A stretch of 64,000 nucleotides of DNA, taken from contig NZ_CP007452.1 in NCBI RefSeq assembly GCF_000597865.1, positions 689,183 through 753,182 of the forward strand, given 5' to 3'. Each line of letters starts with the position of its first letter. The first letter of the stretch is position 1. Below, piece by piece: positions 2,637-52,358 of this stretch. The notes beneath the pieces are model-generated. The model was not told where the DNA came from, ran no database searches, and saw nothing but the letters and a program-made list of their open reading frames with translations. This DNA comes from Peptoclostridium acidaminophilum DSM 3953 (GTDB taxonomy: Bacteria; Bacillota; Clostridia; Peptostreptococcales; Peptostreptococcaceae). The position numbers were made by a program, and so were the translations under genes.

Positions 2637-3439
2637 TGCCCGTCACCTTCTTTATCCTTGAGTATGAATTTCATATCTTCAAATGAAGCTTCCACCTTTT
2701 TGCCGGTGTCCTCCTCGACATATTTAATGAACACATCCTCAAGATTCCTGGCGTTCTTCTCAGCGATGAGCTCCTTGGGGCTGCCTTTGCCTATTATGTG
2801 ACCGCTGAAGACGAATATGAGCTCGTCGCATCCTTCGGCTTCGTCCATGTAGTGCGTGGTTACAAGTATTGTTATACCTTCCTTTGCAAGCTTGTGTATT
2901 ATCTGCCAGAATACCCTTCGTGAAACGGGATCGACTCCTGAGGTTGGCTCGTCGAGTATTAGCATATTGGGTTTGTGAAGTAGTGTGCATCCAAGGGCCA
3001 GACGCTGTTTCCAGCCCCCGGAAAGATTGCCGGCCAGCTGCTTTTCTCTGCCTTCGAGACCTGCCATTTTAACAATTTGGCTTATTCTTTCGTTTCTTAT
3101 GTTATCCGGAACTGAATAGACCTGTGCATAAAACCTTATATTCTCAAGAACCGTAAGGTCCTCATAGAGGCTGAATTTTTGAGACATATAGCCGATGCTC
3201 TGCTTTATCCTCTCGGACTCCTTTACAATGTCATATCCGAATATCTCACCCTCTCCGGAAGTCGGCGTCAGCACGCCGCAGAGCATGCGTATCAAAGTCG
3301 ACTTACCCGCTCCGTTAGGCCCGAGTATGCCGTATATGCTGCCTTTTGGTATTTCAAGGCTTACGCCGTTGACCGCCACTAGCTCGCCAAAGCGCTTGGT
3401 GAGGCCTTTTGTCCAGACTGCCATATTTTCATTCGTCAT
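2633..3439 (-). CDS. ABC transporter ATP-binding protein (export type)
   Basis: 268 residues with a full nucleotide-binding domain: Walker A GPNGAGKST, signature LSGGW-KQRLAL, Walker B LILDEPTSGVD and the switch histidine in TTHYMDEAE. The signature has tryptophan where glutamine is usual (LSGGQ). It is closest in layout to single ATPases of ABC-2 exporters; E. coli YbhF instead fuses two such domains. Start and stop each overlap the neighbouring gene by 4 nt, so the three genes are translationally coupled. It powers the permease encoded downstream. Confidence 0.92.
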   Translation of the reverse strand: MTNENMAVWTKGLTKRFGELVAVNGVSLEIPKGSIYGILGPNGAGKSTLIRMLCGVLTPTSGEGEIFGYDIVKESERIKQSIGYMSQKFSLYEDLTVLENIRFYAQVYSVPDNIRNERISQIVKMAGLEGREKQLAGNLSGGWKQRLALGCTLLHKPNMLILDEPTSGVDPVSRRVFWQIIHKLAKEGITILVTTHYMDEAEGCDELIFVFSGHIIGKGSPKELIAEKNARNLEDVFIKYVEEDTGKKVEASFEDMKFILKDKEGDGH

Positions 3440-47952: not shown

Positions 47953-48777
47953 GTGATCAAACAGAATGCTCACAAATACAGTGTATCAGCAATGTGTAGA
48001 GTCCTTCAAATACCACGGAGCACCTATTACTATGAATCTACTAAAATACCTGCAGAAGATGAAATAACAGATTCAGTAGTTGAAATTTTCAATGCAAGCC
48101 ATCAGAATTACGGAACACGTAAAATAAAAGTGGAGCTTCAAAAGCTCAATATAACTGCCTCTAGACGAAGGATTGGCAGAATAATGAAAGAAAACGGCCT
48201 TGTCAGCACATATACACTAGCTCAATTCAAACCCCATAAAAGCGCTTGTAATGAGTCCGATGTGAACAACGAACTGGATAGAGATTTCGATTCCAAAGCT
48301 CCCCTAGCAGCTGTTGTGAGTGATTTGACATATGTTAGAGTCGGCCAGAAATGGAATTATATTTGTATCCTAATCGATTTATTCAATCGCGAAATCATCG
48401 GCTATAGTGCTGGTGAGAAAAAGGATGCACATCTGGTAAGTCGTGCTTTTGCAAGCTTCAAAGGCAATTTGAGTCATATCGAGCTGTTCCATACAGATCG
48501 GGGCAATGAGTTTAAAAATCAATTGATTGACGATGTCCTTAAAACCTTTAAAATCAAACGATCGTTGAGCATGAAAGGCTGTCCGTATGATAATGCAGTT
48601 GCGGAAGCCACTTTTAAAATATTCAAAACTGAATTTGTCAGGAAAAAACGATTTCTAAGCTTAGAAGATCTAAATATAGAGCTATCGAAATATGTAAATT
48701 GGTTCAATAACAAAAGAATTCATGGAACACTTGGATATTTAAGTCCGATTGAATATAAATTACAACACCTTAATTAA
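47953..48777 (+). CDS. IS3-family transposase OrfB (DDE integrase domain)
   Basis: 274 residues from GTG 47953, or fused to OrfA by frameshift; the orfB frame is open upstream past 47917. An HTH_21-like region (ASRRRIGRIMKENGLVS) precedes the rve core with the DDE triad: Asp in VVSDLTYVRV, Asp in FHTDRGNEFK and Glu in NAVAEATFKIFKTE. No truncation or internal stop is visible, so the element may still be active. Confidence 0.9.
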   Translation: MIKQNAHKYSVSAMCRVLQIPRSTYYYESTKIPAEDEITDSVVEIFNASHQNYGTRKIKVELQKLNITASRRRIGRIMKENGLVSTYTLAQFKPHKSACNESDVNNELDRDFDSKAPLAAVVSDLTYVRVGQKWNYICILIDLFNREIIGYSAGEKKDAHLVSRAFASFKGNLSHIELFHTDRGNEFKNQLIDDVLKTFKIKRSLSMKGCPYDNAVAEATFKIFKTEFVRKKRFLSLEDLNIELSKYVNWFNNKRIHGTLGYLSPIEYKLQHLN

Positions 48778-49929: not shown

Positions 49930-50211
49930 TAGATATAAAAAAATAGGGAAAAAAGGAGTAAGTTGTGTAGAACATTTCGTTTGAGGATATGATTAATATA
50001 GAGGTTATAATAACTTTCTATTTTTTGGATTTTGAAAAGTTTCTGGAAATATGGTGATAGGTACTGGGAAATTAAAGAAAGACCAGCTAATAAAAGTCAA
50101 TAAATCTGATTGATTTTCTTTAGAAATTTTCAATCTTAAAAAAGAGTATGAGAAACCAAGCCATTGAAAAATCCGAACAATGACCTTGGAGAAGCTACAT
50201 TTTAGCAATTT
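49930..50211. other. Spacer with a second copy of the two-component promoter region
   Basis: GTGTAG (49965-49970), 17 bp, TATGAT (49988-49993) and flanking bases up to about 50013 match the region at 45410-45452. No gene follows: after about 200 bp of AT-rich sequence without supported coding, the IS110-family transposase gene begins in the opposite direction. The gene once driven from here may have been lost or displaced. Confidence 0.6.
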
Positions 50212-51519
50212 TTAAGCAACATGTTTTGGTGCAGTTTGAAGCTTGTTGTTTCTCCATGCTTGGTGCTCCTGCGGGCTTCTAAATTCAAACGGTTTTAAGT
50301 CACGAAGAACCGCAAAAATGTAGTGGAGCAACTTATGCATAACGGCTATAAGGGCCACCTTTTTCTTCTTGCTGACACATTTTTTCAAATAGTAGTCGCG
50401 AAGAATCGGATTTATGGAATCGCCGTTTCTGGTGGTTCTTATTGAGGACAGAGCCATTGTGAAGAGAACTCTTCTGCCAATGCGGGTGCCTCGTTTAGAA
50501 ATCCTGTTGCGGTCGCCAGTGAACTTGCCCGACTGATTGACTGATGGATCTATGCCAAAGAAAGCTGTAAAGGCCTTTGGAGACTTGAATAGGCTGAAAT
50601 CGTTGATTTCCGCGATCAGAGTGACCGCACTGATAAAGCCTACGCCAGGCATTTGATCCAAAAGCTCGATGTGCTTTCGAGCGGTGTCAGGAAAGTCGCT
50701 TGAGTCGATGATAGTGTGCAACTGTGATTCTATAGCATTAAGACACTTTTTAAAGCTGTCGATTCCATCAAGATGGAATCTTATTTTGGAGTCAAGCAGA
50801 GCGAATTCATTTGGCATACTCAAAGAAAGCTGTGCTGTTTCAAGAAGTTGCAGAGCTTTTTTGGCTGACCACTTCTCGCCTTTTCTGCCGCTTTTGGAAA
50901 TGAGCTCAAGCAACTGCTGAGGGTCTGCATTTAGAACATCCTTAGGCGAAGGATAAGCGCTTAAAACAGCCAACGCGGTCTTTCCAAAAGGATTGGAAAA
51001 CACATCAAGAAAGCCCGGGAACAGCAAGTAAAGATCCGTGCAGAGCCTGTTTTTCATCTCAGTGAGCATGTCACAGCGGGAGTAATATTCCCTCACCATC
51101 ATGCGAAGTGCGAGAATTTGAGGCTCGGGCATCATGGAAAACTTTACATCCTGGTATTTTGCAAGCCTTGCGATAGCCTCGGCATCTTTATTATCATTTT
51201 TCACTTTTCTAATGTCGAAATTCTTGGTAGAATGGACACATAAAGGGTTTAGGACAAAACCTTTGAGGTCATTCGATCTCAGAAAGAAGAAGAGTGGTAA
51301 ATGAAAGATACCCGTAGATTCTACGAAGTAGATGGGCTTTCGTTTTAACCGCTCTTCTTCTTTTTTGAGAATCTCGAGCAGCTTGTTAAATCCAGCAGGA
51401 TTATGGTCAATCCTGAAAGGCTTGCGGATGAGCTCTCCGGAAGGTGCTATCATTGCAACTACAGAAAACTCTGATGAAACATCAATTCCGACAACAAAAT
51501 CGTTTAAAAATTGGGACAA
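50212..51519 (-). CDS. IS110-family recombinase/transposase
   Basis: 435 residues from TTG 51519 (AAAGG 10 nt upstream); the open frame continues upstream without a ribosome site. The N-terminal RuvC-like DEDD domain shows Asp in VVGIDVSS (residue 13), Glu in FVESTGIF and the Asp pair in KNDNKDAEAIARL. The C-terminal Transposase_20 domain has MPGVGFISAVTLIAEI and GIDPSVNQSGKF, containing the serine nucleophile region. IS110 enzymes insert DNA under guidance of an RNA made from the non-coding end of the element. The gene seems intact. Confidence 0.92.
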   Translation of the reverse strand: MSQFLNDFVVGIDVSSEFSVVAMIAPSGELIRKPFRIDHNPAGFNKLLEILKKEEERLKRKPIYFVESTGIFHLPLFFFLRSNDLKGFVLNPLCVHSTKNFDIRKVKNDNKDAEAIARLAKYQDVKFSMMPEPQILALRMMVREYYSRCDMLTEMKNRLCTDLYLLFPGFLDVFSNPFGKTALAVLSAYPSPKDVLNADPQQLLELISKSGRKGEKWSAKKALQLLETAQLSLSMPNEFALLDSKIRFHLDGIDSFKKCLNAIESQLHTIIDSSDFPDTARKHIELLDQMPGVGFISAVTLIAEINDFSLFKSPKAFTAFFGIDPSVNQSGKFTGDRNRISKRGTRIGRRVLFTMALSSIRTTRNGDSINPILRDYYLKKCVSKKKKVALIAVMHKLLHYIFAVLRDLKPFEFRSPQEHQAWRNNKLQTAPKHVA

Positions 51520-51529
51520 AGTAACACAA

Positions 51530-51731
51530 CCTTTCTGCTTAGAATGAATCAGAGTATCCACTTTGTTTGAGGACGCCAAACAACCTTGCATTTGAAACGG
51601 GTAACACCAGAAGGTGGCCCAACCAGCTAAACATCGAATCGTCCTTGTGGAGTGACACGCTAATTTACGGATAAGACCTCATGATGTGAGGGATCCAGGA
51701 GGAACGCACATCTATCTCTCTGACAAGTGAG
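51530..51731 (-). ncRNA. Candidate IS110 bridge RNA
   Basis: Upstream of the recombinase start, read on the minus strand, an extended -10 box TGCTATAAT (51740-51732) is followed by about 200 nt with nested pairing. Stems seen: GGAT/ATCC enclosing CCTCA/TGAGG (51669-51696), CACC-TTCT-GGTG with an outer GGG/CCC (51599-51620), and a long-range GGACG/CGTCC (51640-51644 with 51571-51575). This is the place where IS110-group elements encode the bridge RNA with target- and donor-binding loops. No -35 box is present, which fits a promoter completed by element circularisation. The boundaries and the loops are inference. Confidence 0.45.
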
Positions 51732-51871
51732 ATTATAGCACGAAGTTTAGTGATTTTCATTCAAGAGTGTCGCTGGTTCATCTGAACAATAAATGTTAAG
51801 TTATCAAGGAACATTCGGACGGGTTTTTGAACCCTAACCCTATATTTATCTTACAAGGGAGGAACCGCTTA

Positions 51872-52358
51872 ATGTTTAGAGAAATGAGAAGAAAAAAGCA
51901 ATTATTATCACCTGAAGATACAATAGCAGTAATGGATAGATGCACAAACGGTGTCCTGGCGTGCTTAGGCGATGAAGAGTACCCATATTCTGTTCCTTTG
52001 AGTTATGTATATTTCAATGACAAAATCTATTTTCATTCAGCAAAGGCCGGCCATAAAATTGAGGCCATCACTAAATATCCAAAGGTGTCTTTTACGGTAA
52101 TAGATAAAGATACAGTTGTAGGCAATGAATATACGACTTATTTCCGTAGCGTTATAGCCTTTGGAAAAAGCTAGAATAGTGGAAGGCGATGAAATGCTGG
52201 AGGCTTTCAAGGCTTTAGTAAAAAAGTATTCAGGCGATCAACCCGAAGACGCCCAGCACAAGGAAATAGCCGGATGCACTCAGGCATATATTGTTGCAAT
52301 CGACGTTGAATATATAACGGGCAAGGAAGCTATAGAGCTTGTCAGAGCAAAACAATGA
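51872..52358 (+). pseudogene. Pyridoxamine 5'-phosphate oxidase/NimA-like flavin protein, frameshifted
   Basis: The gene starts at ATG 51872 (GGGAGGA upstream) and reads MFREMRRKKQLLSPEDTI, then CVSVPLSYVYFNDKIYFHSAKAGHK-like PPOX sequence, until TAG at 52172-52174. The missing C-terminal third (ARIVEGDEMLEAFKALVKKYSG to the end AIELVRAKQ) continues in the next frame to 52358. The break is at a run of five A in GGAAAAAGCT (52163-52172); four A would give a continuous frame of about 161 residues. So it is a recent pseudogene or a sequencing error. A related intact gene lies at 60257. Confidence 0.82.

Follow-up and report, generated by a model that had tools for sequence, protein, structure and literature searches.

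Why should every full copy of an insertion sequence lie in the ribosome-binding site of a gene? The question is raised by an IS110-group element in a stretch of 64,000 nucleotides (nt) from Peptoclostridium acidaminophilum DSM 3953 (NZ_CP007452.1, positions 689,183 to 753,182), which is called the window here and is numbered from its first letter. A sequence-only reading of the window had placed a candidate bridge RNA in the leader of the recombinase gene, but had left the guide loops undefined. With those guides now all assigned, an unsolved leader becomes a bridge RNA. This mobile element very probably carries in its 5′ leader a predicted bridge RNA of about 177 nt, whose target guide resembles the anti-Shine-Dalgarno (anti-SD) tail of 16S ribosomal RNA (rRNA) and would aim the element at Shine-Dalgarno (SD) sequences.

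The genome, 3.06 Mb in two contigs, holds nine identical full copies of the element and one truncated copy in which the right part is kept. CT is present at both ends in 9/9 full copies and there is no target duplication beyond this core, as in the IS110 group. The features that define the element and its site are as follows.

50080-51857, minus strand: whole IS110-group element, 1,778 bp including both CT cores, with ends from the comparison of nine full copies at different sites
51856-51857, minus strand: CT core of the left end, AG on the plus strand, where it belongs to the rebuilt SD
50080-50081, minus strand: CT core of the right end, from the same comparison
50212-51519, minus strand: recombinase gene, 435 amino acids from a likely TTG start at 51519, its translation matching Pfam DEDD_Tnp_IS110 and Transposase_20
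51856-51864, plus strand: target-gene SD AGGGAGGAA as rebuilt by the junction, with the ATG of the gene at 51872

The recombinase has the two domains of the group (PF01548, E 7.5e-28; PF02371, E 1e-23). D14, E68, D110, D113 and S331, which we take to be its catalytic residues, are invariant across an alignment of five sequences. The TTG at 51519 is most likely the start; the ATG at 51591 chosen by the open reading frame (ORF) caller would fall within the bridge RNA. Because the ends found by copy comparison reach 51857, the leader measures 338 nt (51520-51857), against 132 nt of non-coding sequence downstream of the gene, again as in the IS110 group. The non-coding interval first proposed, 51520-51745, was right in its start and too short at its end. 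A non-coding RNA at the 3′ end, as in the IS1111 group, had been named as the alternative and was not borne out: the longer non-coding end is upstream, and so are the guides and the match of a covariance model that detects only this RNA type.

All nine full copies lie in an SD just before a start codon, which follows 11-16 nt past the core A. In the sense of the gene, the sites read AG followed by GAGGTA (one site), GAGGAA (six), GGGGAA (one) or GGAGGAA (one), and the start codon behind them is ATG in seven and TTG in two. The element is oriented antisense to its target gene, and the SD stays whole because the left end of the element restores the AG. The genome also carries a second IS110 element (recombinase 42% identical, eight identical copies, guide UUCACCUCCU), which occupies sites of the type AG followed by GAGGTGA. 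A third, in genome G060 from another family of the same order (10 copies, guide UCUUCUCCU), is found at AGGAGA in 4/7 resolved sites.

A start codon 6-19 nt on, followed by at least 40 open codons, stands behind 68/91 insertions, compared to 2,676/18,200 positions (14.7%) picked at random from those flanks. By element, the score is 9/9 for the window's own, 8/8 for the second (one doubtful, L055, where a GTG lies within the SD) and 6/7 for that of G060. The test drew on 94 insertions, of which three with short flanks were skipped, and copies and possibly orthologous insertions were counted separately. It was run without the G060 copies L074, which is masked with N, and L073 and L076, whose left ends are not exact matches; by eye, the left end of the last two carries one T too many or has TT as its core, as if by a one-base slip of the junction.

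The genes behind the element's own sites include those for an ArsR-type regulator, Cas7 and a DUF2721 protein and the pyridoxamine-phosphate-oxidase-like gene of the window; behind sites of the second element are, among others, a resolvase, an IS605-type OrfB and an MFS transporter. The copy in the SD of cas7 is at locus L011, with the target gene at 2672. The window's own target gene (51872-52358) shifts frame at about 52150-52174 and looks broken, which is consistent with silencing after insertion and no proof of it. At L016, about 2670-3260, the first 290 bp or so of the target gene, which resembles the N-terminal part of copper amine oxidase, are by eye apparently repeated in tandem from the TTG start.

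Does the element seek SDs, or do only the insertions at SDs last? The genome holds 286 AGGAGGAA sites, and ATG, GTG or TTG stands 3-8 nt on in 147 pattern matches versus 52 for the reversed pattern. Since roughly one in two potential sites resembles a true SD, as against all nine that are occupied, selection may contribute. The alternative that survives best builds on this contrast: insertion would be RNA-guided and would take place at matching sites anywhere, and the SD context would partly be survivorship, insertions within genes having been lost. We consider it possible, though not the likelier course. Nine copies are a small sample, and survivorship would supplement guidance rather than replace it, as the matching of guide to target is needed either way.

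What in the leader could read these sites? In the IS621 system, as described in passages of the report, each left guide pairs with a bottom strand and each right guide with a top strand (PMC11208160). Read by this rule, the leader resolves into the following parts, listed in the direction of transcription after the RNA and its closing stem.

51548-51724, minus strand: predicted bridge RNA, 177 nt, its minimal extent given by closing stem P1, from the minimum-energy fold and a covariance model
51718-51724, minus strand: 5′ strand of P1, from the minimum-energy fold
51548-51554, minus strand: 3′ strand of P1, from the same fold
51697-51704, minus strand: left target guide UUCCUCCU, spelled like the top strand of the target and in large part like the 16S rRNA anti-SD
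51669-51696, minus strand: cap hairpin of the target-binding loop, which folds better than its shuffles in 65/65 sequences (mean z -2.27)
51660-51668, minus strand: right target guide region GUAAAUUAG, ending in UUAG, which covaries with the right flank across clusters and fits weakly in its own element
51639-51644 and 51571-51577, minus strand: 5′ strand (GGACGA) and 3′ strand (GGCGUCC) of the long-range stem P3, from the minimum-energy fold
51621-51632, minus strand: left donor guide GUUUAGCUGGUU, whose letters UUUAGCUGGUU copy the right end TTAGCTGGTCT with a single U/C difference
51599-51620, minus strand: cap hairpin of the donor-binding loop, from hairpin z and stem covariation
51584-51597, minus strand: right donor guide region, ending in UGCAAGG, of which UGCAAG pairs with CTTGTA of the left end, one of the pairs being G-T; it covaries with the left end

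The strands and the order of the four guides, in two internal loops, are those of an IS110 bridge RNA. The likeness of the left target guide to the ribosome extends to its relatives. At least six consecutive bases are shared with the 16S tail by 49/68 guides, whereas among shuffled guides 1.6 of 68 did so on average and never more than 6; among other 12-mers of the same leaders, 3% share such a run. The 16S tail GGATCACCTCCTTTCT itself has seven occurrences in the genome.

Relatives were taken as the best 80 of 497 from a genome scan, together with 16 viral loci, of which the five closest (L159-L163) were used in the guide tests. The loci kept, 89 with a leader of at least 250 nt, including the elements of the window's own genome (L122 and L131 were left out), fall into 70 clusters; L117 and L136 were omitted at one later step and L066, L120 and L141 at another. 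In 76/89 loci a left end could be called independently of the guides. Between left target guide and own target, a mean of 6.69 of 8 positions match, as opposed to 5.54 when targets are permuted, and 0/10,000 permutations were as high (58 clusters, doubtful ends included). For the right target guide, agreement at the first base past the core is 0.85 versus 0.475 permuted (0/5,000; 60 clusters).

The donor side behaves likewise. The third base of the left end, which varies, fits the right donor guide in 70/74 loci, in the combinations T:A (30), A:T (29), G:C (8) and C:G (3). Among the four disagreements, L151 and g098 each have another left end that agrees, the guide being used to choose it; L102 is a misreading by the script, since the aligned guide agrees; and the left end of L095 is, in our judgement, a wrong call. 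L151, g098 and L095 were kept in the test of guides against targets and donors, and were left out of the start-codon, promoter and outward-promoter analyses. Covariation is thus found for the left and right target guides and for the right donor guide.

It may be asked whether the recombinase protein, rather than the RNA, recognises SD-like DNA, the match in the leader being a coincidence or the remnant of an old target. An SD target is common to many relatives, so a protein could explain the shared preference. When permutation was confined to groups of recombinases linked at 65% identity (63/68 clusters had a usable protein), however, targets still tracked the guide letters: 6.82 versus 5.95 for the left guide (0/5,000; 44 clusters), and for the right guide 0.837 versus 0.625 at the first base (1/5,000) and 1.449 versus 1.069 over two bases (0/5,000; 49 clusters). 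Right flanks also switch among CTA, CTT, CTC and CTG along with the right guide. Recognition by the protein is on these grounds very improbable. Because the match between guide and target persists among recombinases linked in this way, it is the RNA that, judged from sequence, sets the target.

Individual pairs make the same point. The recombinases of L092 and L093 are 92% identical; their guides are UUUCCUCCU and UUUUUACCU, with right guides AAG and GAG, and their targets are ATCCTCCT/CTT and TTTTTACCT/CTC, so that both sides follow the change of guide. In two other pairs above 90% identity, L138/L150 and L147/L153, the target follows the guide on the right side. An apparent off-target landing was also seen: L066 (genome G029), a relative with a stop in the recombinase frame and the guide AATCCCCCT, is by eye inserted in a CRISPR-repeat-like CAATCACCCT.

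That the leader is mainly a regulatory 5′ untranslated region, its SD complementarity silencing the recombinase or other genes, would suit its place upstream of the gene, its promoter motifs and hairpins, its guide complementary to SDs and a best match of that guide to the own recombinase leader slightly above shuffled (5.13 versus 4.53 of 8; 52 clusters), but is highly unlikely, as a match at 7 or more of the 8 bases is reached in only 2/52 own leaders, the non-anti-SD guides of L093 and L104 fit their own insertion sites all the same, and the covariation of donor guide and left end has no role in such a region.

The bridge RNA is further supported by its structure, stems of which the sequence-only reading had listed. 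All three sets, GGAT/ATCC with CCTCA/TGAGG, GGG/CCC with CACC/GGTG, and GGACG/CGTCC, recur in the minimum-energy fold. The own leader and L093 share the same plan, with P1, a capped target loop, P3 and a capped donor loop, and L133 has most of it. The donor-loop cap is better than shuffles in 55/65 sequences (mean z -1.26), and so is the whole region (55/65, mean z -1.13). A covariance model built from 65 leaders gave 82 matches over 86 sources, with at least one match in 81; at E 0.001 the distant IS110 loci L064, L164, L165, L191 and L194 were without a match and L190 was marginal. Changes on both sides occur in 32/50 pairs of the structure-fitted alignment, and 414 such cells were counted, compared to 181.5 ± 15.4 in shuffles and 111-200 with slid partners. 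The two checks proposed at the outset, covariation in the stems and complementarity of the loops to target and donor, therefore both came out in favour of a bridge RNA in the leader.

Two putative promoters could serve this RNA.

51848-51853, minus strand: -10 box TAAGAT of the circle-junction promoter, with a 17-nt spacer to the -35 box of the right end
50095-50100, minus strand: right-end -35 box (TTGACT) of the circle-junction promoter
51732-51740, minus strand: internal extended -10 TGCTATAAT before the bridge RNA, with a weak -35-like ATGAAA at 51755-51760, 17 nt away

At the junction of a circle, the right end would give TTGACT or TTGACA and the left end the -10 box, and the spacer is 17 nt in 53/53 clusters in which both ends were found. 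End finding required TTGAC and -10 motifs, which accounts in part for their presence but not for the constant spacer. A promoter motif across the circle junction, as in other bridge-RNA elements, is thus present. The sequence-only reading was correct in its extended -10 on the minus strand, and its promoter completed only in the circle holds as a motif; its placement does not, for the junction -10 lies about 100 nt beyond the interval it had drawn and the TGCTATAAT box is separate. Since the integrated copy contains that box internally, the RNA may be independent of the circle. Across the clusters a second -10 directly precedes P1; together with a -35 at a distance of 16-18 nt it scores at least 9/12 in 52/68 of them, with a mean of 9.1 versus 3.7 for shuffles, a gap that stems in part from the TA...T required in the -10; the internal -35 is TAGACA in 17/68 clusters. 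The two putative promoters predict different outcomes for the integrated and the excised forms, and the internal one, if active, would free the RNA from the circle.

By eye, hairpins occur about 15-45 nt into several left ends (window 51821-51834 and relatives), just past the point at which the junction promoter would start; their differing sequences still pair, e.g., GTAGTC/GACTAC and CATAGC/GCTATG. Outward transcription of the target gene from a promoter in the left end was also considered and is unsupported, the best score being 8.50 versus 8.52 in shuffles (56 clusters).

Several observations weigh against a bridge RNA aimed at SDs. The own right guide, UUAG, predicts CTA, which is found at 4/10 right ends, the others being CTT (five) and CTG (one); the corresponding fit is 6/8 in the second element and 10/10 in that of G060. 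The start-codon test was failed by 23/91 insertions. Some of these failures are elements with non-SD targets or guides (L091, L093, L104), and all six of the closest relatives, L079-L084, fail despite SD-like flanks. The left donor guide is nearly invariant, and does not change even with AGCTGGACT in place of AGCTGGTCT as the right end; it is too conserved to yield covariation. The compensatory changes were counted in an alignment that had been fitted to the structure, on which RNAalifold predicts only four pairs. Finally, the fold energy of the own leader is that expected by chance (z -0.01; 96/200 shuffles as good), so that a single sequence could not settle the structure. Single-leader fold energy was set aside as evidence: L133 likewise gave no signal (z -0.17) and L093 some (z -1.96).

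For the bridge RNA with an SD-aimed guide, the following course is proposed. The leader RNA of about 177 nt, with its closing stem, target-binding loop and donor-binding loop, would be transcribed from either motif, in the circle only or from the internal box just before it, and would bind the DEDD recombinase of the element, as we infer from the family. Because the left target guide copies the ribosomal anti-SD, copies would land before genes at their ribosome-binding sites, and past the core the short right target guide would pair with the top strand. The donor loop would read the joined right and left ends of an excised circle, and recombination would then insert the element antisense to the gene, just upstream of its start codon, and rebuild the SD. 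An SD-aimed guide would open landing sites before very many genes with the guide unchanged and the coding sequence intact. Natural pairs that have been re-aimed while their recombinases stay more than 90% identical are ready material for testing the rules of bridge RNAs.

A broader proposal is speculative and, taken as a whole, unlikely. It would have a clade of bridge-RNA elements settle on the most universal signal of bacterial genes by means of a guide that mimics the 16S tail, the RNA being made continuously from the internal promoter in resident copies; the anti-SD RNA might act in trans on mRNAs, and the start-signal preference of IS900 would be RNA-guided by the same principle.

Around the element, an integrase-type transposase ORF, IS3-like by eye, lies nearby at 47953-48777. 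Rfam gave no family for window 50000-52000, with only two microRNA matches far under the gathering score and on the strand opposite the gene. The element was without a match in a plasmid collection from which records near the window's genome were possibly excluded.

How does this element compare with known systems? It shares with IS621, as passages of that report describe it, a bridge RNA in the upstream non-coding end with the target loop before the donor loop, the strand rule given above (bottom for left guides, top for right ones), pairings that include the core, a promoter across the circle junction (here a motif) and an RNA of 177 nt, compared to about 177 nt here (PMC11208160). In the same passages, IS621 targets REP elements, whereas the present element targets SDs; unlike that of IS621, its predicted RNA begins about 130 nt inside the left end, is enclosed by a closing stem, and has an internal promoter motif in addition to that of the junction (PMC11208160). 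The seekRNA of ISEc21, in the parts of the report that treat it, likewise lies in the upstream non-coding region, has the bottom-strand match before the top-strand match and shows natural re-direction through changed guide bases (PMC11187229). It differs in being shorter, 74 nt, and in its target, a conserved codon region of certain IS3-family transposases (PMC11187229). Words beginning with "Shine" are absent from the main texts, supplements excluded, of PMC11208160 and PMC11187229, and a search by title and abstract opening, with most subscription journals and preprints outside its scope, found no paper on an anti-SD bridge RNA among those listed. The family, the RNA mechanism and, from IS900, the targeting of SDs were already known; an RNA explanation of SD targeting was not found in the literature searched.

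A preference of IS900 for translation start signals was reportedly described, to go by the title, by Doran et al. in 1997. IS900, an IS110-family element of Mycobacterium avium subsp. paratuberculosis, has the target motif CATGNNNNNNTCTCCTT and is rarely found within coding sequences, according to passages of a later report (PMC8141618). Read on the other strand, that motif is an SD with a start codon, like the sites described here; the host belongs to another phylum, and those passages propose no guide RNA as the cause (PMC8141618). A guide RNA that copies the anti-SD is offered here as a mechanism for the target preference reported for IS900.
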